From Macrocystis pyrifera (lineage: Eukaryota; Sar; Phaeophyceae; Laminariales; Laminariaceae): a stretch of 64,000 nucleotides of DNA. A model generated the notes under the pieces. It was given only the letters and a program-made list of their open reading frames with translations, did not search any database and was not told where the DNA came from. Below, piece by piece: positions 605 to 62,900 of the stretch (the first letter of the stretch is position 1; each line of letters starts with the position of its first letter). The stretch lies in NCBI GenBank assembly GCA_031763025.1, contig JASSKH010000002.1, forward strand, positions 20,774,168-20,838,167, in the 5' to 3' direction. Position numbers and translations under genes: made by a program.

Positions 605-1640
605 TACACTCTATTCCCTAGGTTTACCCTAGGGTAATCTAGAAGCAACATTAATTTCCTGTCCTAACTGACCAAATGACAATAGAACGGTACACCAGCG
701 CTTTTTTGCCATTTTACGGTACAAAAAACTCAAACCAGGCTATCAGGGCACACCAAACCCAAGTTAGATGACATTTTATGTCAAGGTATACCGTTTTGTG
801 GCGAAACATCCATGTCCGTCCGTCTCACTTGCAAAAATGCCAAAAAACGGTACACCATCGTATTTTCGCCAGTTAGTAGAACAAGGTGATCAGGGCACAC
901 CAAACCCAAGTTATATGACATTTATGTCAAGTTATACCGTTTTCTGGCGAACAATGTCCCGGTACAGCTTATATTTTCGAACGAACACAGCGTTCGTCAA
1001 TAGAAACGCATTCTTGTACTGTGTCCTCCTGTTCAAACGAACGTACCAGGTACGAGTCAAGCGTGCTTATATATAATCTGAAGCCATTTTATTTCGTTTC
1101 GTGCGCGTGCGTGTAGTCAGAACACGGTACCGCGGGCGAGCCCGGCGCCGCCGCGGGTGTCAGCGGGTGCTAGCAGGTAGAGGGAGTGTTGCAAGGAGCG
1201 CCGTCGCCGTTTGCATGGCTAGGCGTCGCGTGTGTCTCGAGACCCGCAGGAAGCACGAATGGGCTCTGTCTGGCCTCCTTGTGAGGCTCCGCTTGCACCA
1301 TATACGAGATGTAAGGGTCGTTTTGATATGCGAAATCATATTTAAGCAGTGCTTGTTTTTGCGACCAAACTAAACTTCAAAGAGACTTCAATGCAGTTTG
1401 AGCACGAACTTTGTCGAAGTGGCGAAGAAGGGCCAAGGTGAGCACCGGGCTTTCCGCGAGGCGGGCGACGACGCTCACTGTGGCAGAGAGGGAGGAGAAC
1501 TTTATCCGGACCCAATCGGTGGTGATGTGGTCGCGAGACGGGCGGGCGGCGTACAAGGCTAAGAGGGAAGCTCTGCTGTTCTTTTTTTTTTCTTTTTGAC
1601 CGGTGGAACGTGTCCCAATCAGGCAGAAAATTGATACAGG
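605..1640 (+). repeat. Repeat family A, forward copy 1
   Basis: This copy starts near GGTTTACCCTAGGGTAATCT. Next come two tandem units of about 130-160 bp marked by AACGGTACACCA and CAGGGCACACCAAACCCAAG. Then follow a TATATAAT-like stretch at about 1068, a GC-rich part (CGGGTGTCAGCGGGTGC) and a tail rich in T. Parallel copies lie at 46.85-48.11 kb and 23.23-24.48 kb, and reversed copies at 22.0-23.1 and 41.4-42.5 kb. Its body holds the uninterrupted TA site (1171-1172) that carries a miniature transposon in the 47-kb copy. It looks like a non-autonomous mobile element; no protein is encoded. Confidence 0.8.
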
Positions 1641-1673
1641 CAGCAAAAACAACGCAAAAAACAGAATAGACTT

Positions 1674-1785
1674 TTCGAGCTTGCACCAATCAAAGCAGAG
1701 CTCCTGTGACTTACCGTATGACTTGACCTTTCGTGCTTGCACCAATCAAAGCAGAGCTGTGACTTACCGTATGACTTGCAAAATT
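1674..1785 (+). repeat. Two-copy tandem repeat of about 50 bp
   Basis: The phrase GCTTGCACCAATCAAAGCAG, followed by TGTGACTTACCGTATGACTT, occurs twice in succession (from about 1680 and 1735). The copies differ by a two-base insertion and a short linker. It lies at the 3' edge of family A copy 1. Confidence 0.85.
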
Positions 1786-1889
1786 GTCGTGATTGGCCAA
1801 CACTGCCGTTACAACTGCTGCTGAGCACAGATATCGTATTGAGCGTGCTACGAGTACTACAAACAGGCTGTTGTACATCGCTGCGGCCA

Positions 1890-2790
1890 TGTCACCCAGC
1901 AGCAGCAGCAGCAGGCAAAACCATGCGCGTGAGGTGGCACATCCGCAGTATACTCTATGGATGGCTTGTATCGGGGCCTATGCATCACGGAGGATGGATA
2001 GGTAGAGTTTGGGTGCGGGCGCATGTATGTATCCCGACTCCCGACCACACCCACCACGACGACGACCAACAACCACCGCCACCTGCTGTTGCCCAGCAGC
2101 ATCATAACAGGCCAAACCAGCGCGCGAGGTGCACACCCGCAGTGTATTCTTGGCTATTGTACCTGTAGTTGCAAGTAAGTGTTGGAGCCTACGACGCGTC
2201 ATCGAGGATAGATAGGCAGAGCTTGGTGTGCGGGGGCATGTTTGTAACCCGACTCCCGAACACGCCCAACGATCAACAACCATCTAACTGCCACCAGGCA
2301 AAAAAAAAAAACTGCGTGAGGTGGGAGGGTGTACTCTTGGCTACTGTACCTGTAGTAGTTGCATGTGTCGGAGCCTACGATGCATCATCGAGGATAAATA
2401 GGAAGAGCTTGGGGTGCGGGCGTATGCATGTATCTATGTACCCATGTATGTATCCTGACTGCCGACCACGCCCACCACAAACATCAACGACCAACTGCCA
2501 CCAGACAAAACTACTCACCCTCCAGCAGCAGCAGCAGGCGCCCAGCAAGCAGCACACCAGCAGCAGGCAAAATCATGCGCGCACGTTGGCATATGCGGGG
2601 TGTAATTTTTGACGAGTTGCGTGTATCGGAGCCTACGATGCAGCACCGAGGACGGATAGTAGGCAGAGCTGGGGGCACGGGCGCATGTACAGCATGAATG
2701 ACATCCCGACTCCAAACCACACCGACCACAACGATCAACAACCGCCACCAGAAAAAAACTGTTGTACTCCTCTGCTGTTGTTCTGAGCAG
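1890..2790 (+). repeat. Tandem repeat, about 200-260 bp unit, roughly four copies
   Basis: Units begin near 1921, 2115, 2311 and 2573. Each contains a GTGAGGTGGCA-like stretch, a GGAGCCTACGATGCATCA-like stretch, a TGGGTGCGGGCGCATGTATG-like stretch and a CCACCACGACGACCAACAACC-like end (slightly different in each copy). CAG runs separate the units. Open frames across it follow the repeat and are not credible genes. Confidence 0.8.
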
Positions 2791-3413
2791 CAGTGCAATT
2801 CTCACAGCCAATCGAGAGGACAGCAGTACGCATGTGCCTGCTGTCGCCACCGTTTGCCTGCGCCACCACCACGTACCACCGTCTCTGCTGTTGCTCGAGC
2901 TGCGCGGTTGGTATTTTGGATCGCCAAGCTCGTCATAATTTCATTCACGTATACAGTGGACCCAAAAGCTGCGTCACAGTAGTAGTAGGGTGTCCCCTGC
3001 AACCGCTTGAGAGCACAGCAGTAGTAGTAGCAGTACAGTTCCTGCGGTCGTCCTTTGCCTCCACACCATACACACCGCCTATATCTTGCTGTGCAAACGT
3101 TGCTCGACCGGCATTGAGGCGGACGAAAATCGATTGAAACGCCTCAAAATCGTTGGACGACAGACAGCCTACCCTTCTAACACCCTACATAGCTGGTCGA
3201 AACAAGGCTGCAGTGATACTGACTTCTCGATATCTGCGACCTACAGTATCCACTTCTTACAGTGCCAAAACCAAATTTTATAGTTCCAAAACCGCAAGAA
3301 AAAGCGGAAATTCTATGGTACGAATACGTGCTTCCTACGTACTTTTCTTGATACTTCCATTATCATTACAACGGTAACGGCCCACGTCAACAACGGTGCT
3401 GCCGCTTAGCGGC
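2791..3413. other. Unannotated spacer
   Basis: No conserved protein motif or RNA was recognised. Short GTAGTAGTAG and CAGCAG tracts occur. The last 100 bases (TTCTTGATACTTCC and AACGGCCCACG) resemble 24.86-24.90 kb, which suggests a shared flank of the family C/protease repeat. Confidence 0.5.
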
Positions 3414-4122
3414 CGGGGTCTCGATCGACCTGATGATCAACTCCACCCCAACAGCGGATGGCCAGGTGACGTCGTGGAACGGCATGCTCGTATCATGTAC
3501 ACTCGGAAAGCTCTCGGATTCAACTGGGAACTACACTACCGATTGCCATGTCGAGGACCATGGCCATATCGAGATAACCGCATCCCAATGTGCACGATAG
3601 CGAGATCCCGCACCAGTCTTGATTCCGCACGGACCACCCCAGTCACTCCAGGATGCAGTCAATGCCTTGTTCCTGACCGGGGCCGCCTCCGGCTTCTCAT
3701 TTCCTGGACCTGCTCCGTGCCCCCACTGCGACGAGAAGCTGCGCCCGGCACATCAGCACATCCATATGGTCGATTCTTCCTTGGAGTGCGGACAACGCCC
3801 CAGATTTGCTATTCTTCGCGTCTGCGCGTGTAGACACATCTGCGAGGACGCCGGAGAGCCGCCAGCACCGCCACCCATTTTGATGATAGGCGTTGAGTAC
3901 TGCCTCGTAGCTGCCATCTACTCCATTCCGAACCATTTCGTGACCCAGTTGCGTTCGAGAGGGCGGTTGTTGAAGTACGATTGTATACTCGGGGGGAGTA
4001 CCACGTCTTGCGACGATTTCGACTATGACTGGTATCATGGTTTCCAGCATATGTACGTATGTCTACCTTCAAAAGTCTATGACCTTGCCTGTTCCCCAGG
4101 CACAAACAACACCATACCGTAG
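3414..4122 (+). pseudogene. USP-like cysteine protease fragment, broken copy
   Basis: This is a diverged copy of the C-terminal half of the protease gene at 49.9-50.6 kb. Over most of the length the two copies align closely in nucleotide sequence. The reading frame has to change at least once: one frame reads MINSTPTADGQVTSWNG up to a TAG near 3598, and another carries the later part with CPHCDEK. The C-terminal part keeps the features expected of a USP (peptidase C19) histidine box: YCLVAAIYSIPNHFVTQ, then a basic stretch and KYD. The catalytic cysteine exon and the helicase part seen at 49 kb are absent here. I infer a 5'-truncated dead copy of a mobile element. Confidence 0.7.
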
Positions 4123-4264
4123 TGCTAGCTACCATGAGCGCGCAAGCCAAGAACGCGCGAAGATAATCGAGGCGACTAGACAAGGACCCATCATGCCTCC
4201 GCCTTACGGAAGTCCTGGCCACTACGACGTGGGGAGCGCAGCTGTGCCTTGCCGACTCGACTCC

Positions 4265-5560
4265 GACGTACCGCCGCCTTGAGCGTCTCACAGGTTCTTC
4301 ACACATGTGTGTTGAAATGTTTTGTTTTTTTTTGCGGATATTGCTTCGCGATTCAGACTGCCTGCCTTCTTGTTTCCGTCTTTTTGCTAGAACGCATTTT
4401 GCAGAAATGTTGCGCGGCGCGTTCAGCCTTTCGAGTTCTGCGCAGCTACGTTCATGTTAACTGTTCGGTCGACAGAGTGTTGTTTACGGGGTGCGTGTAC
4501 GTAACGATCATTGGCGAAAAATCTGCTTGTATGCCTTTTGTCATCTTGAACTTCACTGCGTCGTTTTTTGGTATGGCCGAGGTCGCGACATGTCGAGGTC
4601 ATCGCAGTCTGCGCGATGCGACTGTGATGTTATGTTTTGTTTTTTTTTTTGCTTCGAAATAGCGATAACTGCAACATCTTGAAACAAGTAATATTCTACG
4701 TGGCAAAAATCGACGTCGCGAGAGAATTTTCATACCTCCGTCCAACCTTTTATTATATGGTAACACCTAGGGAACAGCAGGGCAACCCTTGCCCTGCCCT
4801 ACATATTTACCTGCACGGAGATGGAAAAAATGTATTGTCTCTCCTTCCATCATCATTATCGGACGCTCCGAAGCATCTATTACTCCGTCGACGGCACCGA
4901 AAGCAGCAGCAGCCAAAAAGTACGGAACGTCTAAGTTTCAATAGAGGGCTTAGAGGGGAAAAAAGGTATCTACCGGACTCAATCCACTTGTTGTGTCGGC
5001 GACCGCCACAACAAAAAGCAAAACTATCCAAAGGGCTACTACGTACAAGCAGGGTGACCGAACAAGTCGGCGTGCAAGAGGGATAGTTAGGGTATAGCAG
5101 GTATGCACATTTTGTATTTCGAATTAAGTTCCCATGAGACTCGCGAAGACTCTCTCGTTTCAGTGCTTTGACGCACTTTTGGACTCGGTACTTCAAAATT
5201 ACTGGTATTCGCGGGTCAACGACTAAGTCCCGATGACTGGGCAATGGTACTGTGCCGACCTTTTTGTTTGCAGTATGCAGTTTTGTCGCTGCTACATTTT
5301 CACTCCTACCCGAAATGCACCTGTCCTCTGCAGTATAGTGGTATTTTTTGTATCGCTGGTGTTTTTTTTTGCCCCTACCCCGAACGCACATGTTACGTAT
5401 TGTTTCTGGTCGACGTCTTTGCGTACGTATCGTTCCTGCTTTTTGGGCCGCTTTTCTAAGCCCGACAAATGCCTGAAATTTCCATACCTCCGTTTAACCT
5501 TGTATTGATGGTAACACCTAGGGAACAGCAGGGCAACCCTTGAGTTGCTCTACAATACTG
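4265..5560 (+). repeat. Repeat family C, copy 1
   Basis: This non-coding sequence follows the protease copy and recurs after its paralog (50.76-51.30 kb) and, without the protease, at 24.95-25.46 kb. Landmarks are GACTGCCTGCCTTCTTGTTT, TTTCGAGTTCTGCGC, GTTTACGGGGTGC and GACTCGGTACTTCAAAAT. A submodule, ATGGTAACACCTAGGGAACA followed by GCAGGGCAACCCT, occurs at about 4756, 5508 and 51247. It is probably the 3' non-coding part of the same mobile element. Confidence 0.75.
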
Positions 5561-15396: not shown

Positions 15397-15399
<3 letters not shown>

Positions 15400-17848: not shown

Positions 17849-17927
17849 GTTTGGTTGGCTTTGGGCTATGACGCCAATTGTTGCAATTGGCGTAACAATT
17901 GGCGTCATAGCCCAAAGCCAACCAAAC
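17849..17927. repeat. Perfect inverted repeat, 34-bp arms, 11-bp spacer
   Basis: The left arm 17849-17882 (GTTTGGTTGGCTTTGGGCTA, then TGACGCCAATTGTT) is matched exactly in reverse complement by 17894-17927. The spacer GCAATTGGCGT itself carries part of the same motif. The paralog at about 14590-14630 has only degraded pieces (AGCCCAATGCCAACCAAAC). It lies just 3' of the OTU copy and could form a strong hairpin. Confidence 0.95.
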
Positions 17928-17985
17928 GAAATGCATTTTTATTTGTGTAAGAAACGGTGAAGGATGTGATTAGTACCAATCGCGT

Positions 17986-18600: not shown

Positions 18601-18671
18601 GGTGCGCGGGGCGAGAGTGGCGTGCAGGGAATGACGGGGGAGGGGGAATAGGGGGGCGGGGGGGGGCGTAC

Positions 18672-22008: not shown

Positions 22009-23141
22009 AAGGCGCTTCGCTCCGCGGGCGGCCTACGCCGCCCGCTACGCTCGCTCAGGACGGAAAAGGACATCAAATTATGCGAAGTGGACAGAGGTCT
22101 ATGATTGAATATTGCTTTTTCATGACTGCTGTAGTTGCAAACTGGCAAGTTGAATATGCCAAGAGTCCCGCCGCCATGCTTCAGGAGAAGACACCTCGGA
22201 CGCCACATACGCTTCGCGTCGCGGGCGGTTTTCCGCTACGCTCGCTCACATGTCGTAGGTGCGTACATACCCCAGGTAGGGTACTCGTTTTCTTCTTTCG
22301 ATATGTTGTGTCTGTACTCGTATGTGCGAAAGATAAAGCACAGCACGGCGCAGCACAGCAAAAACAATCAAAATGAAACCGAAAAAATCTGAAAAAAACA
22401 AAAAACTCGTTCCCTTTCGTATAGTAATTTACTACCTGATTGGAACACCTTACACCGGTCAAAAAGAAAAAATCAAACAGCAGAGCTTTTCTCTTAGCCT
22501 CATACGCCGCCCGCCCCTCTCGCGACCATCTCGCCACCGATCCGGTCCGAGTAAAGCTTTCCCCCCTCTCTTCCACAATGAGCCGCGTCGCCCGCCTCGC
22601 GTGAAGCCCGGTGCTAACCGTGGACCTCGTTCGCCAGCTCGACAATGTTGGTACTCATTCGGGGTACCTCGCTCTTGCGATTTCGGCCAGTCGCAAAAAT
22701 AAGCACGGCTTGAATATTATCTTACAATCCCGAACGACCCTTAAATAGTCGTACGTACTCTATAAAAAAATCACAAATGGAGGCCAGACAGCCTTTTGAT
22801 GCATCCCTCGTGTCTCGAGGCACACGCGACGCCTAGGCACGAAAGCGGCGAGCGCGCTCCTTGCAACTCCCCCTCTACCCGCCAGCACCCCCTGACACCC
22901 GCGACGGTGCCGGGTTCGCCCGCGGAACGTTGGTCAGAGTACACGCACGCGCACGAAACGAAAGAAGAAAAAAGGAAAGAAAAACTGAAATTACGAAGAG
23001 AAAGGGAGAAAACAAAGACCCGCTGGAAAGGTCCGGCAAGTAATAAAAGGAGGCGATTCCCAAGTGGGAGCTCTGAGAAGCCAGGGATGCACCAACCGAG
23101 CACGCTCAGAGGGTGAGACCTACGTAAGTAGTTCTATGTTG
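22009..23141 (-). repeat. Repeat family A, reverse copy (long form)
   Basis: From GGCGCTTCGCTCCGCGGGCG to about GTAAGTAGTTCTATG it matches 41409-42543 in the same orientation. Its right-hand two thirds match, in reverse complement, the family A copies at 0.6, 23.2 and 46.9 kb. The left part carries a GC hairpin (22024-22045) and extends the family beyond what copies 1 and 2 retain. No conserved protein frame was seen. Confidence 0.8.
22024..22045. repeat. GC-rich hairpin at family A end
   Basis: Perfect 9-bp arms GCGGGCGGC and GCCGCCCGC flank the loop CTAC. A decayed version lies at about 41424. Related GC hairpins occur at 26272 and 28930. Confidence 0.9.
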
Positions 23142-24639: not shown

Positions 24640-25460
24640 GTACATGGAAGCAGACAAAGGAAGACCAACGCACGTACTGCTTTACTAGCCTACTACATTA
24701 GACTACGGTTCGAGTTCGTACTTTCTACGTAGTTCTCTTTGTCGATACCTACAGTACAGTACGCCGATCTTTTCCCCCAAACCTATAACCTACTGCTTGC
24801 TGCCGTACTAGGCTACGAACTGTATCAAGTAGACTATAGCACAATTACGTACTTCTTACGTACTTTCTCGATACGCACATGACGACGATAACGGCCCACG
24901 AAGAACGATAGTCAACCTACCGTGCTTTCCGTCACCGTTGAGGTCGTGCCTGCGTTTGTTTCGTTGATTCAGGTTGTTGCACGGCGCGTCGAGGCCTTCG
25001 ATTTCTGCGCAGCTACGTTGATATTATCTGTTTTGTCTACAGATTTTTGTTTACAGGGTGCATGTACGTAACGATAATCGGCGAAAGTTCTCTTTGTATG
25101 CGTTGTGTCGTCTGCGGCGTCTTATTTGGTATGTACACGGCATGTCGAAGCCGTCGCCATCTGCGCGAATCGACTGTACTATTATGTTTTGGTTTTTTGT
25201 TTCCAATCGAAGTACCCATGAGACTCGCGAGGACTAAGTCATTTCAGCCCTTCGTACCCTTGAGACTCACGAGCGTCATTTTAGCACTGTGACGTACCCT
25301 TGGACTCGGTACTTCAAAATGACTGGTATTCGCTAGTCAACGAGTGAGTCCCGATGACTGGACAGTGGTACTCTGCCGACCTTTTTGTTTGCAGTTTGCA
25401 GTTCTCGTGTCGCTGCTGCAATTTTTCCCTCCTACCCAAAATGCGCCTGAAAGCAAATAT
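24640..25460 (+). repeat. Repeat family C, copy without protease
   Basis: From about 24950 it parallels 4380-5330 and 50880-51060: GCACGGCGCGTCGAGGCCTT, GCATGTACGTAACGATAATC, GACTCGGTACTTCAAAATGA and CCGATGACTGGACAGTGGTA. The upstream 24860-24900 resembles the flank of the protease copy at 3.3 kb, so this may be a deleted version of the same element. Confidence 0.75.
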
Positions 25461-37345: not shown

Positions 37346-38051
37346 GTGTTAAGCTATCCGAGGTGTGAAATATTGCGCCCAAATGGTTGTATACATTTGT
37401 ACGAAAGCTACAGTGCCAATTCCTTCGCGCACTAGCACGGATCGCCTGGGTGCCTCCTGTTAGAGAGTTTCTCGTAGAGATCCAAAGAATCACAGCATGT
37501 AAGGTGGCGGATTTATCGATGCGATATCAACTGTAGTAGCCACGAGCGTTTTTTTACTGGGGCATAGTTTACTTACGGCCGTCTAGAGTTCGCACCCTAA
37601 TCGGTGGCATCGCGTGTACTTTCAAACACGACACATATTATTTGCACGTCATTACGGATGACACGTCTTGATCGATGGCGCTACTGGAGTATTTTTCAGT
37701 ACTACAGTACGATGTGTTGCATGCCTTGGATGTCCGTACTCCTCGTGCACTGTCTAAGAAGAATCAGTGACGTATCCCGCCATCGCCAGCAAGCTACCTT
37801 AAGGACTTCGTTGAACAAGCAGCTGGGACGCTTTGAGATAAACACCCACAGATGCCGTTTTGTAGCGTGTCCAAGCCCGTTGCTTAACCAGGGAAGATGT
37901 CGCCGCGTAGGAAATGGTGTGGTATGTTGACGATTTTGTCTTGTAGTGAATGTATCGTTAGGTGGACACGCCTCCTGTTGCTGGAAGAGTGTGGAACGTC
38001 GAAAATCGAAAAGAAAACAGATCGAAGAACGTATGCATTCACCTTGCTATA
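37346..38051. other. Unannotated stretch
   Basis: The longest open frame (37604-37930, plus) has no recognised motif. No repeat family was seen. Confidence 0.35.
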
Positions 38052-38156
38052 TTACGGGGGTCCATAGTTAACGGGACCAAATTTTGTTAGTAAAAATAGG
38101 CAAATATATAGGTTTTTATGTGCATCATAGGTCCTGTTAACTATGGACCCCCGTAA
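38052..38156. mobile_element. MITE (TTACGGGGG family), copy 3
   Basis: It is 105 bp. The left end TTACGGGGGTCCATAGTTAA mirrors the right end TTAACTATGGACCCCCGTAA exactly. It is flanked on both sides by TA (38050-38051 and 38157-38158), the target duplication typical of Tc1/mariner-derived elements. The core is AT-rich and non-coding. With 20-bp identical ends this is the best preserved copy. Confidence 0.95.
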
Positions 38157-38794
38157 TAGCCCATTTTCTAAATGAAGCAGTTTGATTTCTCGTGCGCTGC
38201 TTCTATGCGTTTCATTATTTACCCTATTCGCGACGTTGGGCCTGGCTTATGGTTGAAGACAATGTTTTAAAATTCCAATGGCCCAATGCGACTACTGTAG
38301 CGTCACCCTTGATGTTCAGTCAGAGGAGTGATGCAGATTGGGGTAAGCTTCCCGCGTAGAGCAAGTGCGTAACTTGAAGCAGTTGCCCGACGCCCACCTC
38401 TGTTTGCCCTTGAGTGCTTGGAAAATCGTTCGTAAACGGTATGGAGTGCGAACAAACCTCTTTACTATAAACAACTGCCTGGTACGAGCGAACGCCGATA
38501 TCCCGACCACGTAGGTACCCGCAGTTTTGGGATTTTTTTCACCTTATTGTTTTATTTACAAGGTATTTGCCTATGATCCAGCGGGTCGATCGACGATGGA
38601 CACGCGTGTAGTTTTTCAATTGCAGGGGAAGACGCAGGCCTGTGTTGGGGAGTGTATTTTTTTCCCGTCTACTTTACTTTAGTTGCCAAGACGCGTTGTT
38701 CCTCCGATTGGCCTTCATCTTTCGGCTTGCGAGAAGTGAAGAACTTGATTTCTCAACTAATGGGTCAGGTTGTGAACGGCGCTCACAGCGAACC
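38157..38794. other. Unannotated stretch
   Basis: No conserved protein, RNA or repeat was recognised. Short open frames on both strands only. Confidence 0.35.
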
Positions 38795-41408: not shown

Positions 41409-42543
41409 CAAGGCGCTTCGCTCCGCGGGCGGCCTACCCCGCCCACTACGCTTGCTCAGGAAGGAAAAGTGCATCAAATTATGCTAAGCGGACAGAGGTC
41501 CATGATTGAAAATATTAATAGTTTTTTCTGATTGTAGTTGCAAAGTGGCGACTTGGTAGTGCCAAGAATCCCGCCGCCATGTTTCAGGAGAAAACAGCTC
41601 GGACGCCACGTGCGCTTTGCGTCGCGGGTGGTGCCGCCCGCTACGATCGCTCACATGCCGTACGTACGTAAAATACCCCTGATAGGGCTATTATTTTCTT
41701 CTTCTGATACGCTGCATGTACGCAAGAGAAAGCACGGCGCAGCCAGCAGCACCGCAAAAACAATGAAAGTGAAACCGAAAATTTCGGAAAGAAAAAAAAA
41801 AAGATCCTGTCCACTCTCATGTAATTTTTTTTTTTCCTGCCCGACTGAAACACCTTGCACCGGTCAAAAACAAAACAAAACAGCAGAGTTTCTCTCTCAG
41901 CCTCGTACGCCGCCCGCGCCTCTCGCGACTACCTCGCTTCCGATTCGGTCCGGGTAAAGCTTTCCTCCCTCTCTGCCCCAGAGTTCCCCGTCGCCGCCTC
42001 GCGTGAAGCCCGGTGCTCACCGTGGCCCTCGTTCGCCAGCTCGACAAGGTTGGTGCTCAGACTGCGTCGCTCTCTCTGTGAACTTCAGCCTGGTCGCAAA
42101 AATAAGCACCGCTTGAATCTACCTTGCAGTCCCGAACGACCCGTACGGAGTTGTACATACTCAATCGAATTATGCAGATCGAGGCCAGACGGAGCCGATT
42201 CATGCTTCCCTCGTGTTCCGAGGCACACGCGACGCCTAGGCACGAAAACGACTACCGCGCACCTTTCAACTCCCCCTCTACCCGCCAGCACCCGCTGACA
42301 CCCGCGACGGCGCCGGTCTCGCCCGCGGTGCCGTGCTCCGAGAACACGCACGCACACGAAGCGAAAGAAGAAAAAAGGAAAAAATAATCGAAAGTGCCAA
42401 GAGAAATGGAGAAAACAAAGAACCGCCGGAAAGGTCTGGCAAGTAATGAAAGGAGACGATTTCCAAGTGGGAGCTGTGAGAAGTCAGGGATGTGTACCAA
42501 CCGAGCATCAGAGAGTGAGATATCTGTAAGTAGTTCTATTGTT
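41409..42543 (-). repeat. Repeat family A, reverse copy 2 (long form)
   Basis: It matches 22009-23141 over its full length: GGCGCTTCGCTCCGCGGGCG at the left, CCCGCCGCCATG-TTCAGGAG in the middle, and GGAGCTGTGAGAAG, GAGAGTGAGAT and GTAAGTAGTTCTATTG at the right. The two ends coincide between copies, which defines an element of about 1.13 kb. Confidence 0.88.
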
Positions 42544-45827: not shown

Positions 45828-46849
45828 CCGGTCTAACCTTTTCCACTACGTTGGCCTGAGCAAGTCAAGCATAGCGTTGATATTTGAGTGTTACGGACTT
45901 ACCGCTGAATTGACCACTCCCACTCGTGCAAATAGTTGTCGAGACACGTTGGTCCATTCTTAGCGTTGGGTGCCGTTTACCGCCCAGGCACCGTGCTCTC
46001 TGACTTCGTTAGTCGTGACTCTGTTGCTTCCTTGGTAGTACCCGTGGTGGCTCTGGAGCCGGTTCAACTCCCGTTCCGTTGGGCTTGACTCCACTCAACT
46101 TGTCTGCCGTATCCGTGATAATTACGGATTTAGTAACCTCGCTGTCTCATTGATGACCCTCCTAGTTTGCCTCAAGAGTGTGGCATCACGTTTTAAAAGC
46201 CTTGTGCTTTCGCCATATTTATCACACTCTGGTTTTTCTTAAGGATTGTGGCAGTGAATTAACGCATAGGGCCGCCTTCCATGATTTTACCTTCTTTTCG
46301 AGCATTCGATATTCGAGGACGGGCGCCAGGAGAATAGGAATTCCACTCTCGGCTGCTTCGCGTTTCGGACCGATCCCTATACTTTTGGAGTCGATTGTTC
46401 TATTAATTCCCATGCCTTCACTTTGGGATCGATTGTCCACATCCTGAATCACCCATTTACCTTGATGTTGAGTAACCTATGAACCTATTCCTGGTAGGGG
46501 ACTCCACGACCGATCACAGCAATCCTCTTACCTTGGATATCCTTCAAGTAGATCTCGTAGGTAGGGACGGCTCAACCCCGGGTTGGGTTAACCGCCCATA
46601 GTACAGTAGTCCCCTTATCTTGGACATCCTCTGCCAAGGTTTGCGTTGACAGCAGGAATCGCCTTACCTTGGATATTCTCTCCCCCCCCCCCCCATTGCA
46701 TTTCACTCGGCTGAGCGAACGCAAGATAGCGAAGAGTAACTTCATTCACCCTGTCTTGTGTCTATCGCTGTGACACATCCACTGGTAGATGACAACTACT
46801 TTCGGTGAGATGCTAAACTCTTGCTTTGGCCTATTACTGGTGTCGTGGC
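45828..46849. other. Unannotated stretch with short repeat phrase
   Basis: A phrase CTTACCTTGGATATCC-TC recurs at about 46525, 46612 (CTTATCTTGGACATCC) and 46663 (CCTTACCTTGGATATTC). A C15 run lies at about 46683-46697. Nothing coding was recognised. Confidence 0.5.
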
Positions 46850-48110
46850 TACGGTTTACCCTAGGGTAATCTAGAAGCAAAATTAGTTTCCTGTCCTAAC
46901 GGACAATATGACAAAAAACGGTACACCAGCGCTTTTTTGCCAGTTTACGGTATGAAAAACTCAAACCAGGCCATCAGGGTATACCAAACCCAAGTTAGAT
47001 AGCATGTTATGTCAAGGCATACCGTTTTGTGGCGAAACATCCATGTCCGTCCGTCTCGCTTGCGAAAATACCAAAAAACGGTACACTAGCGTATTTTTGC
47101 CAGTTTATGGTACGAAAAGTAAAACGGGGTGATCAGGGCACACCAAACCCAAGTCATATGAAATTTACTGCGAAACGTCCATGTCCGTCCGTCTCACTTG
47201 CAAAAATGCCGAAAAAAAAAACGGTACACCATCGTATTTTTGCCATTTTACGGTACGAGAAGTAAAACGAGGTGATCAGGGCACACCAAACCCAAGTCAT
47301 ATGACATTTTATGTGAAGGTATACCGTTTTCTGGAAAACAAACAATGTCCCTGTACAGCTCATGTTCTCGAACAAACACTGCGTGCGTCGATAGAAGCGC
47401 CTTCTCGTACTCATATTCATACGAACATACCACGTACGAGTCAAGCGTTGCTTACGTAATCTGAAGCCATTTTATTTCGTTTCGTGCGCGTGCGTGTAGT
47501 CAGAACACGGTACCGCGGGCGAGCCCGGCGCCGCCGCGGGTGTCAGCGGGTGCTATTACGGGGTTACATAGTTAATAGGACCTATGGTATACATAAAAAC
47601 TTATATATTTACCTATTTTTACTAACAAAATTTGGTCCTGTTAACTATGGACCCCCGTAATAGCAGGCAGAGGGGGTGTTGCAAGTAGCTCCTTCGCCGT
47701 TTGCATGGCCGTTTGCATGGCTAGGCGTCGCGTGTCTCGAGACACGCAGGAAGCACAAATGGTATCTGTCTGGCCTCCTTGTGATGCTCCGCTTGCACCA
47801 TATACGAGATATAAGGGTCGTTTTGATATGCGAAATAGTATTCAAGCGGTGCTTATTTTTGCGACCAAACTAAAGGTCAAAGAGACTTCAATGCAGTTTG
47901 AGCACCAACTTTGTCGAAGTGGCGAAGCAGGGCCACGGTGAGCACCGGGCTTGACGCGAGGCGGGCGACGACGCTCACTGTAGCAGAGAGGGAGGAAAAC
48001 TTTATCCGGACCCAATCGATGATGAGGTGGTCGCGAGACGGGCGGGCGGCGTACAAGGCTAAGAGGGAAGCTCTGCTGTTGGTTTTCTTTCTTGTTGACC
48101 GGTGGAACGG
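46850..48110 (+). repeat. Repeat family A, forward copy 2
   Basis: It starts GGTTTACCCTAGGGTAATCT as in copy 1, carries three ACGGTACACCA tandem units (46915-47340), the GAGTCAAGCGTTGCTTACG module, the GC-rich part interrupted at 47556 by a MITE, and ends at TTGACCGGTGGAACGG. Copy 1 has two tandem units and no MITE. Confidence 0.9.
47556..47660. mobile_element. MITE (TTACGGGGG family), copy 4, with preserved empty site
   Basis: It is 105 bp, from TTACGGGGTTACATAGTTAA to TTAACTATGGACCCCCGTAA, flanked by TA at 47554-47555 and 47661-47662. Host DNA on the two sides (CAGCGGGTGC and GCAGGCAGAGGG) is contiguous around a single TA in family A copy 1 at 1161-1180. This shows insertion with TA duplication directly. 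Confidence 0.97.
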
Positions 48111-48679
48111 GCAAGCGGTAAACGCAACTCGTGAGTCACGTTTAAAAACTCAACTCAGGGGACGATAAGTAACTATCCCCTTGCACCCGCGTCGTCCAAC
48201 CCCATACAAACGTACAAACCGTTGGATACTCCGGTCAGCAAGTCAGGCGATCTTACGTACCGAACACAAAGGGCTGAGACTGACGCGGCCACGAACCGCG
48301 GCTGAGCAAGATACGAAAGCAAAATCGCTCGCAGTGGCCTTTGTCCTTTTGTGGTCTAGTCTACAGCGCTAGATTCGAGCAGCTACCTCGGCACGAGCAG
48401 CGAGAAGCCTAACGAAAACAACACAGCAGTCCAGGTTGAAGCATGCCTTAAAAAAGAGGTGGGTGCAGATGTGCAGATGGTGTAGACTGCTGTAGACCGA
48501 CCTACCGTTGTATCTATCGCTGTCGGTCGTGACTCTTGACCAGAGGGTTTGGCTGTTGATTCACAGCAGTTTTTTTCCTTGTGTCGAATGTGTCCCTGTT
48601 TGGTTGGTCGGATCTGTACGTCAGCTGTGAGTTCAACCGATCGGTCGATACTCAACTTTCTGCACACCCCCGGCAGCTC
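48111..48679. other. Unannotated stretch
   Basis: No repeat family or conserved protein was recognised. It separates family A copy 2 from the minisatellite in front of the helicase remnant. Confidence 0.35.
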
Positions 48680-48935
48680 ATGAGCTAGCTCATCTATTGT
48701 GCATAGCTCACGCTTCGAAAACATGTGCAGATGAGCTACCGCCTATAGCTCAAGCCGGGGGAAACATGTGTAGCTCATGTAGCTCCTATAGCTCATCTCG
48801 GGCGCAGATGAGCTACTGTAACTCATGTAGCTCCTATAGCTCAGCCTGGGAAAATGTGTGTAGATGAGCTATCTTCTGTAGCTCAAGCCTTCAAAACATG
48901 TGCAGATGAAGTACCACCTATAGCTCAAGCCTTCC
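48680..48935 (+). repeat. AGCTCAT/CTATAGCTCA minisatellite
   Basis: Imperfect units of about 50-65 bp contain GCAGATGAGCTAC, CTATAGCTCA, GCC-GGGAAA and CATGTG. The AGCT palindrome recurs about 15 times. It abuts the first recognisable helicase codons. Confidence 0.85.
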
Positions 48936-48939
48936 AAAC

Positions 48940-49440
48940 ATCGACGCCGCCGACAGAGCTGGGCTAAAGCTGGGCGGACTCCCTCGAGGTGTCATCGGCT
49001 GCTGTCCTGTCTACAGGAAGTTCTCCATCGTTGGTAAAGGCAAGCGGAAATTCACCATCAGCAGTATGCAGGTGCCTCTGTCTCTTGGTATTTTTTCCTC
49101 AGTCTATCGAGCACAAGGCGAAACCATCGCAAAACTTGTGTTCGACATTCGTAAGCCAGTAGACGGCTATATGGACAGCGCGGCTGTCTACGTCGCTCTG
49201 TCCCGAGCGACCGATGCCAGCAAGCTCTTCTTGCTGTCGCCGGTTACTCTCGACGATCTGACCCATCCACAGGACGACGGTGTAGCGGCTTTGATCGACT
49301 CTCTCGAACGCCTCGACAAGGCTACACTATTAATAGCCTTGTTCTTGGATGATCCCTCTTCATTCCGACCGGCCACGACAAGTCCTCCGGCTAGTTACAC
49401 ATCCCACACCAACGACGGACAGACACCGACTCCATCCGCC
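48940..49440 (+). pseudogene. PIF1/Helitron-type helicase, C-terminal fragment
   Basis: One frame reads IDAADRAGLKLGGLPRGVIG, then FTISSMQVPLSLGIFSSVYR. It then has AQGETIAKLVFDI and DSAAVYVALSRATDASKLFL, the last two motifs (V and VI) of superfamily 1 PIF1-like helicases as found in Helitron RepHel proteins and in cellular PIF1. The N-terminal Walker A and B motifs and any Rep domain are absent, since a minisatellite begins immediately upstream. After about 49400 the frame must change to reach the protease exon. I infer the tail of a mobile-element protein; a truncated cellular PIF1 copy is the alternative. Confidence 0.75.
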
Positions 49441-50596
49441 CTTCACCTTTTCTGCCGCCCAATGAGAACAACAATTGTTTCTTCAACGCCGCCATCGCCT
49501 CCGCCATAGCTGCTTGGGAAGGACACTCTCTCCCCAACCCAACCATGTCAACACCAGCTGGAGCCATCTTCTTCTCCACTCTTGCGGCTGTGCGTGCCTG
49601 CATGTTCGACGGCAAGCCTCTCCAATGCACCCTCTTGGTAAGTTCTTGCTTGTTCTGTTATCCACATCTCGTCGTAATAATACCCCCCAATACTTACCGG
49701 CGCCCGCAAGTACCCATATATACATAAATACTACGTTGTGCTTTCATGTGTCTTTTAAACGTATTGTATCATTTCGTTCGGTATGCGTCGCATTCTTTGG
49801 CGGAATTCAGAATTCTTTGGCTCAAGCACGTGACAAGATCCTTGGTAGTAGCGGCCTACCGGGCGCAGGATCCGTAATGGGAACGTCAGGCTCCATATAC
49901 GAAGCGATCACCCTTCGACCTGATGATCAACTCCACCCCAACAGCGGGTGGCCAGGTGACGTCGTGGAACGGCATGCTCGTATCATGTACACTCGGACGG
50001 CTCTCGGATTCAACTGGCACTACACCACCGATTGCCATATCGAAGACCATGGCCATATCGAGATAACCGCATCCCAATGTGCACGATGGCGAGATCCCGC
50101 ACCAGTCTTGATTCCGCACGGACCGCCCCAGTCACTCCATGATGCAGTCAATGCCTTGTTCCTAACCGGAGCCGCCTCGGACTTCCCATTTTATGGACCT
50201 GCTCCGTGCCCCCCCTGCGACGAGAGCTGCGCTCGGCACATCAGCACATCCACATGGTCGATTCTTCCTTGGAGTGCGGACAACGCCCCAGATCGCGTTT
50301 TCTTCGCGTCTGCACGTGTAGACATCTACAAGGACGCCGGAGAGCCGCCAGCACCGTCACCTATTTTGATGATAGGCGTTGAGTACTGCCTCGTAGCTGT
50401 CATCTACTCCATTCCGAACCATTTCGTGACCCAGTCGCGTTCGAGAGGGCGGTGGTTGAAGTACGATCGCGTACTCGGGGGGAGTACCACGTCTTGCGAC
50501 AATTTCGACTATGACTGGTATCATGGTTTCCAGCATATGTATGTCTACCTTCGAAAGTCTATGACCTTAACAGGCACAAACGACACCATACCGTAG
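49425..50596 (+). pseudogene. USP-like cysteine protease, two putative exons
   Basis: Exon 1 reads FLPPNENNNCFFNAAIASAI, a good match to a USP cysteine box (N-x-C-F-x-N), and ends CTCTTG|GTAAGT at 49637. The second part (about 49810-50596) has an open frame ending DTIP. It contains PPQSLHDAVNALFLTGA, a CPPC pair and FFASARVDIY. It then has YCLVAVIYSIPNHFVTQ followed by RWLKYD, matching a USP histidine box and the Y-D that follows it. Comparison with the 3.4-kb copy shows frame differences near 49920 and 50000, so at least one copy, probably both, is damaged. Family role: removal of ubiquitin-like modifiers. Being adjacent to the helicase and multi-copy, it is likely part of a mobile element. 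Confidence 0.65.
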
Positions 50597-51300
50597 TGCT
50601 AGTTACCACGAGCGCGCAAGCCAAGAACGCGCGAAGATAATCGAGGCGACTAGACAAGGACCCATCATGCCTCCGCCTTACCGAAGTCCTGGCCACTACG
50701 ACGTGGGGAGCGCAGCTGTGCCTTGCCGACTCGACTCCGACGTACCGCCGCCTTGAGCGTCTCCCGTGTTCTTCTCATGTGTGTTGAAACGTTTTGATTT
50801 GATGTGATATTGCCTCTCGATTCGGACTGCCTGCCTTCTTGTTTCCCTCTTTTTGCTAGAACAATTTTTGTAGAAATGTTGCACGTCGCGTCCAGCCTTT
50901 CGAGTTCTGCGCGGCTACATTTATATTAGCTGTTCGGTCGACAGAGTGTTGTTTACGGGGTGCATGTACGTGACGATCATCGGCGAAAAGTCTACTTGTA
51001 TGCCTTTTGCCATCTTTGACTTCAAGGCAGCGTTTTATTTGGTGTGGGTGTATTCGCGACACGTCGAGGTCATCGCAAAATCTGCGCGATGCTCGACTAT
51101 GACGTTTTTTTTATGATTTTGCTTCGAAATAGCGGCGACACCAGCATCTGCAAACAAGTGATATTCTACGTGGTAAATATCGACGTCGCGAGAGAATTGT
51201 CATACCGCCGGCCAACCTTTTGTTTTACCGTTGCCCTGCCCTACAACATGGTAACACCTAGGGAACAGGAGGGCGACCCTCGCCCTGCCCTACAATATGT
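50597..51300 (+). repeat. Post-protease sequence and repeat family C, copy 3
   Basis: GAGCGCGCAAGCCAAGAACG to TACCGCCGCCTTGAGCGTCT matches 4137-4285 almost base for base. The family C landmarks follow (GACTGCCTGCCTTCTTGTTT and GTGTTGTTTACGGGGTGCAT). The GTAACACCTAGGGAACAGGA submodule is at 51247. Shared 3' sequence shows the two protease loci are copies of one longer element. Confidence 0.88.
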
Positions 51301-52079
51301 TATTTCTGGCCTGACAGGCGTTCCGAATAATATGCGCAGGTGTATACGTTTAGAGTTTGACTTTGACCTGCAGATAAATTTATGTACCAGTATATGCCCT
51401 TCATGTTTTTGTTTTTTTCCTTTCGTCATTCATCCTCCCGAAAATAGCAGCAATCAGGATACCGTGGTACTAGAGAGCGTGCGTGAAACAAAGAAAAAAA
51501 CACACCATCGCACAAGTACATTTATTTGGTATGCATTCTTAGATGCTAGTGCATGAAACAAAGATAAACTCTGCAAAAACATCAAATCATATACCAGTGT
51601 AGGGATACAGTTGTTTGGTGCACACTTCAACGTTAGGGCAGCATTTGTTTTTACCGTTACTTTGCATGTGTGGTTACTGCTAGTACTATACACTGTACGG
51701 ATAAAGGGCTGGCAGTGCCTTTTTGATAGTGGGCAACGTCCACACTGTAGTGACAAGCTACGAGGCCGCACCCAGGTACGGCGCGCACACGTTCCTGCTT
51801 GCTCGTCAATACCATGCACAGAGCTGTGTCGAAATACGGGCCGACTTTATAGGCCAACCAGGTCCCCTTCAAAGGCCATACAGAGATCTTCGCGCGTCTG
51901 TTATCGGAGCACCCAGGCCATGTACTCGTGGAAAATAGATACCAAGTACATCCACGTTGAAACGGGGCAGGGTATTATCCTCTGCCACCCACTGCCCGCC
52001 TTTGACGACGGCACCCGACCTCACGTCATCTGCGCTAACGTGGCAAGTCCTTCGCCGCAGCGACGGCGCTAAACCTGAC
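51301..52079. other. Unannotated stretch
   Basis: A plus frame at 51611-52072 ends in a protein-like stretch (TKYIHVETGQGIILCHPLPA) and then enters the minisatellite. I recognise no family. Confidence 0.3.
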
Positions 52080-52615
52080 TCCGTCTAGGCCAAAATGACA
52101 GAGTCATTTGCCACAATGACAATATTACGTCGTCCAAGCATACAGGGAAAATCCTTTGCCACAGCGGCGGCCCAAACCCTCACGTCGCCCAGGCCAAATT
52201 GGCAGAGCCTTTTGCCACAGCGACGGCATAACACCTCACGTCGTTTGGGACTAAGTGGCAAAGCCTTAGCCATAACGACGGTACATAACCTCACGTCGTT
52301 TGAGCGAAAGTGGCACAACCTTTGCGACCACTACGGCACATAACCTCACGTCGTCTGAGCACGAGTGACACAGCCTTCGCCACAACGACGGCACGTAACT
52401 GCTGTGAATGTATCTAAGTGGCAAGTGGTACGGTGCTGTAGTATCCAGTGCCATAAGTAGCACAGCCTTTGCCCTAACGACGCACATAACCTTGCGTCGT
52501 CTGAGCATAAATGGCATAGACTTTTCCATAACGACGGCACATAACCTCACGTCGTCTCGACAAAAGTAAATGCATCTGAGTTGTAAGTGGTAGGTGCACG
52601 GTGCTGTCGCATCCA
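52080..52615 (+). repeat. About 57-bp minisatellite
   Basis: Eight or so degenerate units carry AACCTCACGTCGT, a GGCAAAGCC or GGCACAACC box, TTTGCCAC and AACGACGGCACAT. A piece of its right flank (GCATCTGAGTTGTAAGTGGT) reappears at 54131 beyond the element at 52636-54124. Confidence 0.9.
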
Positions 52616-52635
52616 TTACCCATTATGTCACCACA

Positions 52636-54124
52636 GTTAGGGGTGGGAATGGATTCGTTTTGGTACGTAAAAAAAACAAAGGTTGTCGCATGGTCGTTAT
52701 CGGGGGATCAAAATCTTCTGGAAATTAACCAATGCGTTGTTGGGAAAAAAAAAAAACGTTTGCCACAAAACAATCCGTTCTATGATGCTGCCTCTCAAAA
52801 ATATAATGAAAAGCCGTGCCGGCATCGATTTTGTGGCGTTGAGCTATAGCTGGCAAAAAAGTCAGCCTTGCTTTTTGCACGACACGTGCCGCAGGACGGC
52901 ACGCAACCAAGCCCAGAACGTAAAGTAATAGCGTAGACACGGACGCACGACCGTGAACGAATCGCACGTTCCTGGGGAGGCCTTGGGATTGGCGACCGGC
53001 AGCACGAGAAAACTGCCCCCCCCCCGTGAAACACATCTTGTACAGATCAAGTCACAGTATGCTGTCCTGTTTTTACTGCTATTGGACACGTGCAAATAAG
53101 AAGAACATACCTCGTACCTACATACAGCATCGACACTCGGCCGCGTGTTGCTGTAGTGCACTTCGCCGAGGCCGGGAGTTCGACGGCGCTGCTTGCATCT
53201 CCGTGGCATTGCTACGCGTGCAGCTAGGCTTAAGCCTTGATGCACTCTCCCCGCGCCTGAAATCTGCATGCTGCTGCTGTATGTACTTGTACGTACCTAC
53301 CACTCTGTCCGGAAATGTAAATAACATCTCTATTTTCATGTTTATACATAAAACTATTCCTTTATTTCCGGACAGGGTGGTACGGTAGAGTATTTTTACT
53401 CGATCGTTTTCTCATGTGAGACAACAATGGTGATGCGTTCGCATCTAAACGCTAGGGGTAAATCGCTTCCTGCTGCAACAAGGCCCTATCACAGATGGTC
53501 TTGGGTGCTGCGATGACACCGGGTGTGATGGCGATCGCTCGGCATGCGGATGCTTTCATATCTGGCACCGTTTGCCCGATACCATGAAGACTGGACGTTC
53601 TTTGTTTTTATGTCGGGTTATTTTTTGTCGAATTTCCCATCAACAATTGACTCTTCAAAAGAGAATCAACTCGTGCACTAGATTTCATGTCGGCTCCTGT
53701 CGGATTCAGGCGCGGATTGCATTGCTGTGTGCGCAAAGTCCTGCCGCATCGATTGACTTGTATAGGTTTTCTGCTAAAGTCGAATAGTTCTTCCACAGAA
53801 AAATACGAATACATCCTGAAAAATCGAGTTTTCCCCGCGTATTTCCTCAAAAATTAACGGAGCAAAAATCTGCAGATCAAACCACAACCAGTCAATCGAT
53901 CATTCTCCATTGATGGGAGGTGTCTGTGGAACTTTATCATCCAAATCGTTCCCCGTGTCGAGAAATCAGGTGCTCGGTGCTACACGTGAAAGTAGTCTAA
54001 AACCAAGTAAATAGGGTGGTGGCAGACTATTTTAAAGAATTGCGATTTTTCTATTAATAGAACGGATTCTCGAATAGACTGGACACTTTTGTACGTCTAA
54101 AACGAATCCATTCCCATGCCTAAC
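52636..54124. mobile_element. 1.49-kb element with about 33-bp terminal inverted repeats
   Basis: The left end GTTAGGGGTGGGAATGGATT, then CGTTTT, pairs with the right end AAAACGAATCCATTCCCATG, then CCTAAC, with few mismatches. Both sides of the element have the same flank (GCATCTRAGTTGTAAGTGGT and ATTACC-ATTATGT), so it seems to lie within a duplicated flank. The TTAGGGGTGGGAA-type end recalls hAT elements, but I could not define a target duplication. Inside are a poly-C run, a smaller MITE and no transposase motif, so it would be non-autonomous. Confidence 0.75.
53300..53380. mobile_element. MITE with CTGTCCGG ends
   Basis: CCACTCTGTCCGGAAAT at the left pairs with ATTTCCGGACAGGGTGG at the right (one mismatch) and is flanked by TA on both sides. 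It is 81 bp, with an AT-rich core. The ends resemble Tc1/mariner-type terminal repeats. It is nested in the 1.49-kb element. Confidence 0.88.
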
Positions 54125-59495: not shown

Positions 59496-59815
59496 ATGCC
59501 AGGATGATACAAAAATCCCGTCAATGTTTCCTTCTGAGGGCTACGCTTTCCTTTAAGCAATACAGTGGTCCTTGCCTTCGTTACGCCATGACATGCGAGA
59601 GCATCGAAGACTAGGCTACTACTTTTCGTTTTTAGCAACACAGTAGCCCATGACTCATTTTTACTCCGAGATCAATTTACATCAAAAAGAGGTGCAAGGG
59701 TGTTACCTGCGTCTCCCTTTTCAACTTGCGGCACCCCCCGGATTTCATGCCACCCACATCCCGAAGGGGATTCTTGTACTATTATACCAAGGAGTAAATT
59801 AGTTTTATCCAAATA
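59496..59815. other. Unannotated spacer
   Basis: Nothing was recognised. Confidence 0.35.
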
Positions 59816-59919
59816 TTACGGGGGACCATAGTAAACAGGACCAAACATTGTCAGTAAAATACCTAAATATATAGGCTTTTATATACGCCACGGGTCGTGT
59901 TAACTATGGACCCCCGCAA
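59816..59919. mobile_element. MITE (TTACGGGGG family), copy 5
   Basis: The left end TTACGGGGGACCATAGTAAA and right end TTAACTATGGACCCCCGCAA flank an AT-rich core. TA lies on both sides (59814-59815 and 59920-59921). It is 104 bp. Confidence 0.93.
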
Positions 59920-62900
59920 TAGTAAAAATAAAAACAGGCAGAGAATAATACAAACGATAACTGAAGCACGTCTACACCTCAGGCAGGAAATGTAAAAAGT
60001 GAGGTCCGAGCACGTACGTATCAGGTACATGCGGTACGCTGTACAACGTCGAAAAATCTAACTCGAAATCGAATGTACTGCTGCTTGCTGTTTGTCCCGT
60101 CGTATATTGTATAGACCCTTACTGAAGGTCGCCAGTTTGTGACATTTCTTTTATCACGAGACATAAACCTACTCCGTGCTGGTGTTAATACTATAATAGA
60201 ACTACTATTAATAATATAATTTCAGCGGTGCCTGGAGATACGTGTTTGTGGCACTGCTCTATGTCTTGCCAGTTGGCGACTGTCGATACTACACCCGTAG
60301 AGCATGCAAGTAATGACGGCGCTGCTGCAGAAGAGAGTATGCAGCAGCTAGCGCTGGGCAGAGGTGCGGGTAGAGCAAAAACAGAGTGAATTATTGTCTC
60401 ACAGCACAGGCGCGTCGAAGCTGCCTGTACGCGACGGTTTCATATCCAAGCAAACCGCCATACTATACAGTACAAAACCCAATATCCTATTGAGTCGTTC
60501 TTGCACTACAGATATCCTGACAGCTACTGCTGTGACCGGTTGAATGCTTCCCTGACGCTGCAGGGAGCCAGCACAGACATTTATTGTTTGCCTTGCCAGG
60601 ACTTTGCATGAGGTTGTTGGCACCGCCCTACTGTTGACAGGACAAACGTACCTATGCAGCCCACCGCACGTACTTTAAATAGTACTCCAGGTAAAACTAA
60701 AGCAGACCGCATAACTAAAAACTCTGATTCCATACATGGTTTTAGCGTTGGTGTGTGACTTGTGCGGCAGCCTACCTCCCCCTTCTGTTTGCTCGAGGCC
60801 GACAGCAAGCATCATGTCAGCATCCCTTCTTTTCATTTTTTTCTACTGTCGGTGCCTATCAGCACAAAGTTGGCAAGGTTGTGTTGAAATCCTGTCACAT
60901 CCAGCTGGCTTTTCGATGTTTTCCGTCTGCTGATATGAACGCGAACACGATCGCAGACAAGCGCTCTCATCCCAAACTGCTGATAGTCACAAGCTGCCTG
61001 GCCAACACAGGTAACCCGCATGCCAGTGGGATATTGATAGGGCCTTGCTTGCCATGCCGAGCTATGTCCAGCTGATGACGAAGGACAGCCTATTCGTACA
61101 TTTCTGTGTACTCGACAATGACAGCTGCAGTATGTACACAGTACATGTACTACTGTAGAAGTATCGTGGGTCGCCAGTCTGTTTTCAACTTTTAAGTTTG
61201 TTGTTTGACGTTTTGAGATTATTTGTTGTTGTCGCGTACTGTGCTTCACCAGAGTATATTATCACGACTACCATGCGTTTCGTACGGTGCAGGCAGCACT
61301 CCAGACGGCAGCCGCTGTAGTCAGAAGCGAGTTGGTTGGTGGTGGGAACGGGAGGAAATCTATGTTGTAGTTGAGAGGATATACCCGTGGCCATGTTATT
61401 CAGTTTGCACATTGATTTCATCTTGTGTGCGCCTTCTTCGTCTCGTGTATTTTTAGGCAGCCGAATTTCGATTTTTTATGGTTTTTCGGATCTTCCTAGG
61501 GATCCAGCACCTTTGTGTGACCACGGACTCCCTTGTTTTGACAGATGATGCGAGAGAACAACAAACAACAAATGTAGCCTGATTTTCTCCGCTCGCCGGT
61601 TGTACGTACTTTCAAGCATACATATTCACTATCACCACGTACTGTAGTGGTGTCTTTCATTATTCATCGTTGTTGGTGTAACATACATCAATCGTACACA
61701 ATAGTTCATCCCGTATTACTGCTGGTGTCTACTCTGAATATGGCAGCTTTGTTCTTGTTCACGTGGCATAACTCAATGGTCTTGTTATCACCGGTTAGGT
61801 GCTTCATAGACCCGACTGGCAGCGCCACACGGCAGACAGTCCAGTTACTGGCTGTTAGTTTGGCTTCGTTCGTACCGTGCAACCACATTTCCTGTCCGTA
61901 TATGCACCTCTTTACAACACAGTCTATGACCGATCCACGATGATCTTTTGTTTTTACCACATAGTGGTAGGTTTTCATTTTTGTACACGATAGAATACGA
62001 GCTGTAGGTCACTAGATGTGATAAATAGTGGAGAGGTTCTGGTATGTAGTACTAGCTCCTTACCGTCACCCTGAGCACTACCACTCGCCCCGCGGCTCGT
62101 GTACCGTGGCTGTCGGGCGCTCACCTTCGCCTTCCAGCTGCGTACGGCGGCTAAGAAATGTTCGTCAGATTCCACCAGTTCGCCGGGCCTATGCTTTACC
62201 GGACCTAACGCATTATCAGATTCCATCAAGTCCGCAAAACAAACAGTACAGAACAGCATCAGATTCCATCAGTTCACCGAACCCCCCTTTTTTTTTTGTG
62301 GACACCAGCCCTCGAGCAGCTGGTGCTCGTGTGACTTGCTCTCTCCGACTTGCATGGTGCTCGTAACCCTATCACCACTTTCTGATCCTCTGCCTGGGTC
62401 GATATCCGGGTTCGTCATGTTGCGGTAAGCTCCCCGGTGCGAGCTGTCAAGGCCCACCTGACTCGCCTCGTCAGTTCGCATGTTGGACCCGTCGGCAGTC
62501 AAAGTGGCTACAATGCTTCGCTCAGGCGAGAGCGAAGCAAACGTTGGCCAAAAACCCCGATTACGAGCGATGCAGATACTCGATTATGCCCGTTATCACG
62601 CGCCTGATGCATATATGCGAGCGAACAGTCGGTTTAGCCTTTAATCCTTCAGTTTTTAGTCCTTTGGTTCACTTTTTAGGTTTTGCACGTATTCTCTTCC
62701 TTGCCTGGGTAGCGTCTAAAGACACCCGGTGTTAGCCCACGCGCTGCAGGCGCTGTACAGCTTGGTCAGGCATTTGGCATTCAGCAGGCTGAAACCGTCT
62801 GCTGAATGAAACACCTCAGCCACACCCACAGAGTAAACCCGCCTCCAATCTGCGCCCAACGATTCGTGGCTGCATGCCTCGACCCGTCGTACTTTCGGTT

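Follow-up and report, generated by a model that had tools for sequence, protein, structure and literature searches.

At one locus in a 64,000-nucleotide stretch of Macrocystis pyrifera DNA, the whole of which we call the window, a helicase remnant is followed by cysteine and histidine boxes like those of ubiquitin-specific proteases (USPs), raising the question of whether the two parts form a single mobile element and, if so, of which kind. The order read there by a first-pass annotation, with a PIF1-type helicase C-terminus, a Cys-box exon and then a His box, was seen again at 48940-50596. These parts lie within a decayed copy of the element, copy B, which is composed as follows:

46849..51295, + strand: copy B as a whole, a decayed element of this family with a damaged 5' tip and a helicase that lacks its upstream part
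46853..48109, + strand: 5' block common to the copies, with internal repeats of about 150 bp
48940..49440, + strand: C-terminus of a PIF1-type helicase (QVPLSLG..YRAQGETI..YVALSRA), the helicase tail being read as far as 49506
49395..49637, + strand: Cys-box exon (NENNNCFFNA), Cys codon at 49476-49478, in a frame different from that of the helicase tail
~49638..49810, + strand: predicted GT-AG intron; some copies are open through it
49811..50596, + strand: His-box exon (CPPC..C..H; NHFVTQ..WLKYD)
50597..51249, + strand: 3' block common to the copies (family C of the first-pass annotation)
51250..51268, + strand: 3' subterminal inverted repeat, GGTAACACCTAGGGAACAG
51269..51295, + strand: 3' hairpin and terminus (...CCCTACAA|T)

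In copy B, one frame change separates the helicase from the Cys box. The helicase tail matched PIF1 chains of the PDB by phmmer (7otj_A, E=0.0011), and in Pfam it gave sub-threshold helicase matches only. Within the His-box exon, the His codon occupies 50420-50422 and the Asp codon 50465-50467. A minisatellite of GTAGCTCAT-type units (window 48700-48935) abuts the 5' side of the helicase tail; it is present in the consensus of one subfamily too, and may mark a deletion point.

The relations of copy B to two further copies, A and C, were obtained by blast of 46500-52000 against the window, which also returned two inverted pieces:

614..5555, + strand: copy A; the 5' repeat with its hairpin occupies 614-640, and the His exon together with the 3' block occupies 3425-4803
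23234..~25480, + strand: copy C, with a 5' repeat at 23234, the 5' block and a portion of the 3' block
22450..22966, - strand: inverted copy of the 5' block
41855..42369, - strand: inverted copy of the 5' block

On the 3' side, 49915-51294 matches 3425-4803 at 88% identity and 50877-51089 matches 24975-25168 at 74%. The 3' block is shared as annotated, but it is not the only common part: the 5' block at 46853-48109 likewise matches 621-1610 and 23460-24228. As this 5' block is common to A, B and C, the copies are whole or damaged elements rather than just tails, with middles that do not align to one another by blast. Copy A, described earlier as a truncated copy at 3.4-5.5 kb, is no bare tail and has its own 5' start at about 614 (TTCCCTAGGTTTACCC); helicase and Cys box were not found in it by tblastn. 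It bears two 3' ends in tandem (window 4759-4805 and 5510-5556), as does locus L012, an arrangement as from read-through of the first stop or from a nested insertion. A search for the empty site of copy A gave no clean one; the host sequence of this copy is a complex repeat covering window 1-616 and 5700-14500, in which GCTCGTTGGAGAATTTC and CACTCTATTC are examples of the stretches present. The copy at 24.9 kb, copy C, gave no protease match by tblastn, in keeping with its description as protease-less, and its 3' terminus was not found. At 47552-47662, the 5' block of copy B is interrupted by a repeat of about 110 bp that copy A lacks. This repeat recurs at window 38050-38160, 59814-59922, 10183-10290 and 11298-11408, with a piece at 8690-8747 of locus L041 (described below); the copies read end in TTACGGGG on one side and CCCCGTAA on the other, and the repeat may be a small inverted-repeat element.

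To which protease family does the second part belong? We aligned 26 rows, leaving out L024, L001 and L028, the last two being duplicates, and found the triad kept in nearly all of them (Cys in 25/26, His in 24/26, Asp in 25/26), together with a zinc-like CxxC-x3-C-x2-H motif in 23-24 of the 26. Compared with four human USPs, the domain has the USP order of Cys box, His box and Asp/Asn, and USP-like spacing: 254 residues from Cys to His and 15 from His to Asp, for distances of 241-321 and 16-17 in the four human proteins, of which the USP2 sequence was verified. Searches of Pfam, NCBIfam and the PDB returned no USP profile match, and one of these searches matched nothing but two lipoprotein chains without relation to the domain, at E values of 0.39 and 0.43. 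With hhalign, the domain aligned to the four USPs along 43 columns around the His box, at a probability of 2.7% and P 0.017, and 2 of 200 shuffled controls scored as high. An HMM of the same four proteins, run by hmmsearch over 1030 frames of the window as well as the spliced protein and the consensus, scored the family consensus at -3 bits, and unrelated window frames scored higher (best 4.5 bits). The earlier USP-like assignment stands on motif order, spacing and a weak profile signal, with no USP match in Pfam, NCBIfam or the PDB; on these features the domain is likely, not proven, to be USP-like. A C48/Ulp1 protease was rejected, with an hhalign P of 0.63 against one SENP2 sequence and the reverse order of His and Cys; in C48/Ulp1 enzymes, His precedes Cys.

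The same genome offers a direct comparison, as it contains Helitrons with a protease of the OTU class. At locus L041, a Rep-Hel-OTU reading frame stays open over 1626 residues, with PF14214, PF05970, PF21530 and PF02338 all above cut-off; in it the OTU domain directly follows the helicase C-terminus. A second, decayed Rep-Hel-OTU element, L042, also has its OTU directly after the helicase (tblastn). Fragments of this family lie in the window itself:

14541-18666, - strand: Rep-Hel-OTU family fragments, relatives of L041, with which their OTU parts share 92% and 87% identity

Like the L041 Helitron, the element described here places a protease directly behind the helicase C-terminus; unlike it, that protease is USP-like rather than OTU, and the helicase tails are about 29% identical. 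Because L041 and L042 carry an OTU domain there, a single genome has proteases of two types at one and the same position following the helicase of its Helitrons. In L041, a short Cys-His motif, LIM- or zinc-like (CYNCRLTDSTIKDGDIIIKRKKTPFHFACSRA), lies at 7851-8345, downstream of the open frame, and motifs of this type also occur beside the OTU remnants in the window.

This shared position makes it natural to ask whether the element simply carries an ordinary Helitron protease, namely a strongly diverged OTU or VTD (tegument-type) domain on a Helitron2-type element. Such proteases are the ones described in Helitrons and Helentrons in the cited parts of PMC9741609 and PMC4067079, an OTU domain sits at the same position in L041 and L042, and USP profiles did not find the domain. 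We nonetheless regard this reading as unlikely, on measurements that bear on its OTU form. The Cys-His distance of about 254 residues fits a USP, whereas in the L041 OTU only 122 residues separate the Cys of GDGACLL from the His of HYSTL. The OTU profile PF02338 does not match the domain, and hhalign gave P 0.18 against the OTU of the same genome, an alignment of two close rows only, versus 0.017 against the USPs. Finally, WxxYD and YVYLRKS come after the His box, as they do in USP7.

A second alternative is that the protease part is a captured fragment of a host gene, carried as passive cargo by the transposon. Helitrons do capture genes, the aligned copies have only a small excess of changes at the third codon position, and Rep was not found in the copies. 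We consider this improbable in view of how the parts are joined across the source assembly (537 Mb, 223 contigs). A fused query of 231 residues, comprising helicase and Cys box, gave 494 candidates; among the best 150, which were scored, 139 matches cover the YVALSR region as well as the Cys box within a single frame, and 103 of these are free of stops. The same frame is found at the OTU position in a longer, diverged relative, L043. Between diverged pieces (identity <=76%, >=60 residues), dN/dS was 0.40-0.82 in 12 of 12 comparisons, several of which involve broken pieces with stops.

Separate searches with each part likewise gave many copies. The helicase tail gave 638 candidates at first look, and scoring 150 of them yielded 150 matches; the His exon gave 1054, and scoring 148 of them yielded 149 matches. 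These copy numbers are far beyond chance. We then examined 28 loci, which represent 27 different places and include the copy in the window; they were made up of 20 stretches of 10 kb, selected mostly for long open frames, and the 8 best helicase matches. The order helicase, Cys exon, His exon was kept in 28/28; the helicase and Cys parts stand in different frames in the window copy, L002-L006 and L008. That two repeats should merely lie side by side by chance, as the density of nested repeats in the region and the frame change in the window copy might suggest, is hardly credible and was rejected, contradicted as it is by both parts occurring in 28 of 28 selected loci, by the one frame in 139/150 best-scored matches and by ends held in common. 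Helicase and protease-like part accordingly make up one repeated element, as had been supposed. It occurs as two subfamilies with a common 5' kilobase (93%), a common helicase-protease-3' part and different middles, a pattern as expected of deletion derivatives. Scans with pattern A2 gave 10 pattern matches in viral contigs and 35 in genome contigs and no relative among them.

The deletion-derivative pattern directs attention to a Rep-bearing form. A search with PF14214 found Rep at 63 places in the genome; by eye, none of the 63 lies within 10 kb and on the same strand as a USP-type helicase among the helicase places listed, bar one on contig C200. The latter, beside a helicase copy at C200:14.04 Mb, was considered as the autonomous partner and rejected, being one of two separate elements. 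A longer, older and decayed relative, L043/L044, has PIF1 core motifs. Its PIF1 stretch in L043 (PF05970 E=1.7e-9, above cut-off, with PIF1 matches in the PDB too) lies upstream of the same tail-plus-Cys frame, and further upstream in L043 there was no match to Rep. Of the Rep-helicase arrangement, the PIF1 part is therefore present, and a joined Rep was not found among the helicase places listed. The short copies without Rep look like deletion derivatives.

The ends of the element were defined from its copies. Alignment depth falls at the same places over 20 loci; a CTACA end follows the 3' repeat in 17 of these and the 5' repeat is in the expected stretch in 13, the loci without one or the other being truncated or changed. 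The element is about 4 kb long, 3865-4473 bp in the 9 loci in which both ends were measured, and starts with TTCCCT in these 9. A hairpin 2 nt from the 5' tip folds from TTCCCTAGGGTTTACCCTAGGG (L014, L016, L017, L022) and from copy A; judged by eye, both its arms are kept in 7 of the 9 loci, with L012 changed and L023 shortened. At the other end, the 3' repeat ends 30 bp before the terminus in 9/9 loci, a constancy that is partly by construction, the motif having been used to locate the ends. Between this repeat and the terminus sits a 3' hairpin, whose stem is CGA/TCG in copy B versus CAA/TTG in copy A, one paired change. Its folding z was -3.40 for copy A, -2.45 for copy B and -1.54 for the common sequence; the second 3' end of copy A reached only -0.56. 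The 3' junction reads CTACAA|T at 14 of 17 ends, the exceptions being L010, L015 and L026.

Joining the flanks of 11 loci allowed a search for empty sites, in which the 5' ends taken for L016, L018 and L025 are doubtful. Sites spanning the junction were found for 6 of the 11 pairs (L009, L011, L014, L017, L021 and L022, with L011 messy); for the other 5 of the 11, an empty site was looked for and none was found. The results agree with insertion between A and T without target duplication. A 55-bp tandem repeat (ACATAACCTCACGTCGT...) lies at window 52011-52640, and its part at 52457-52640 matches the empty site of L014.

The termini place the element in a class. It has an inverted repeat 0-2 bp from the 5' end with a 5' hairpin, and a 3' inverted repeat that lies 20-30 bp inside the other terminus, ahead of a 3' hairpin, both as in Helitron2; as in Helitrons generally, there is no target site duplication (at the 6 of 11 flank pairs with an empty site, one of them messy). 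Helitron1, with 5'-TC, 3'-CTRR and no 5' hairpin, was ruled out by 5'-TT, 3'-CTACAA and the 5' hairpin of the element. The hairpin sought at the 3' end on the earlier proposal is thus there, with CTACAA in place of the CTRR. No AP endonuclease, the mark of Helentrons, was matched by Pfam in the frames of L010, L012 and L043, none of which is full-length. The termini are of Helitron2 type, so that the kind of element is already known, and the idea of an undescribed kind of mobile element falls on its 5' hairpin, inverted repeats, 3' hairpin and ...CTACAA end.

Taken together, the copies demonstrate one element with fixed ends, a fused frame, insertion at A|T without duplication and two subfamilies. 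The feature in the window is probably a damaged copy of this high-copy Helitron2-type transposon, with an ancestral PIF1 helicase and a C-terminal USP-like (papain-fold, C19-type) cysteine protease. Somewhat less firmly, we lean towards a history in which one Helitron2 lineage had the C-terminal OTU of its RepHel protein replaced by a USP-class deubiquitinase, alongside the Rep-Hel-OTU elements, making this the third deubiquitinase (DUB) class after OTU and VTD. Short copies would be moved in trans by a Rep-Hel protein, with the inverted repeats and hairpins possibly serving as start and stop marks of rolling-circle replication. We speculate that the protease could strip ubiquitin from transposition proteins or host factors, shielding them or countering host control; a role in ubiquitin removal has been proposed by others for the OTU, VTD and Ulp1 domains that transposons encode. 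Deubiquitinases or related proteins are found in Helitrons, in Ginger transposons and in some viruses. Were a third DUB class indeed recruited to rolling-circle transposons, deubiquitination would appear to be part of how these elements spread. If unrelated protease classes recur at this position, transposition itself or evasion of host control probably depends on removing ubiquitin, and the presence of OTU and USP-like versions side by side in one genome makes the question testable.

Among known systems, Helitron2 is the closest in its ends. In the cited sections of Bao and Jurka (2013, PMC3627910), Helitron2 elements have a 5' T and a pair of inverted repeats: one lies 0-2 bp inside the 5' end and folds into a hairpin, the other lies 20-30 bp inside the 3' end and is immediately followed by a 3' hairpin; as a rule they make no target duplication, and Rep-less derivatives exist. 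The present element shares the inverted repeats, the hairpins, the 5' T, the lack of duplication and the Rep-less derivatives; unlike the Chlamydomonas Helitron2 elements of that account (TTTT and T/C), it inserts at A|T, and unlike Helitron2 as described there, it has a USP-like domain on the helicase. Helentrons, for which the sections cited of Thomas and Pritham (2014, PMC4067079) give an AP endonuclease as the defining feature and a TT preference, resemble it, together with HINE, in their subterminal inverted repeats, 3' palindrome and deletion derivatives, and some encode OTU cysteine proteases. They differ in the AP endonuclease, not seen here in the frames scanned, and in inserting at TT rather than A|T. 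The Phytophthora proto-Helentron of the same paper (PMC4067079) shares both the 5' TT and the A|T insertion.

As regards the protease, zebrafish Helitrons carry active VTD deubiquitinases, a role of deubiquitination in transposition has been suggested for them, and the authors consider that different DUB classes may serve the same need (PMC9741609, in the parts cited). Our element resembles these in combining a rolling-circle element with a papain-fold deubiquitinase and differs in being USP-like rather than of the VTD or OTU class; in the cited parts of that paper, USP is mentioned outside Helitrons only (PMC9741609). Among the titles and abstract openings listed by searches of the open-licence PMC literature, we found no report of a USP on a Helitron helicase, in line with the view that a USP/C19-like partner would be unusual. 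That view is qualified by cut-and-paste elements, which differ in this from the present Helitron: in the sections of PMC2836005 cited here, Ginger1 transposases have OTU or Ulp1 as alternative C-terminal domains, a Peptidase C19 is joined to a transposase_11 protein in Trichomonas, and the ubiquitin pathway is proposed to take part in transposition. With the Trichomonas case, there is a precedent for a transposon protein that bears a C19 domain (PMC2836005).
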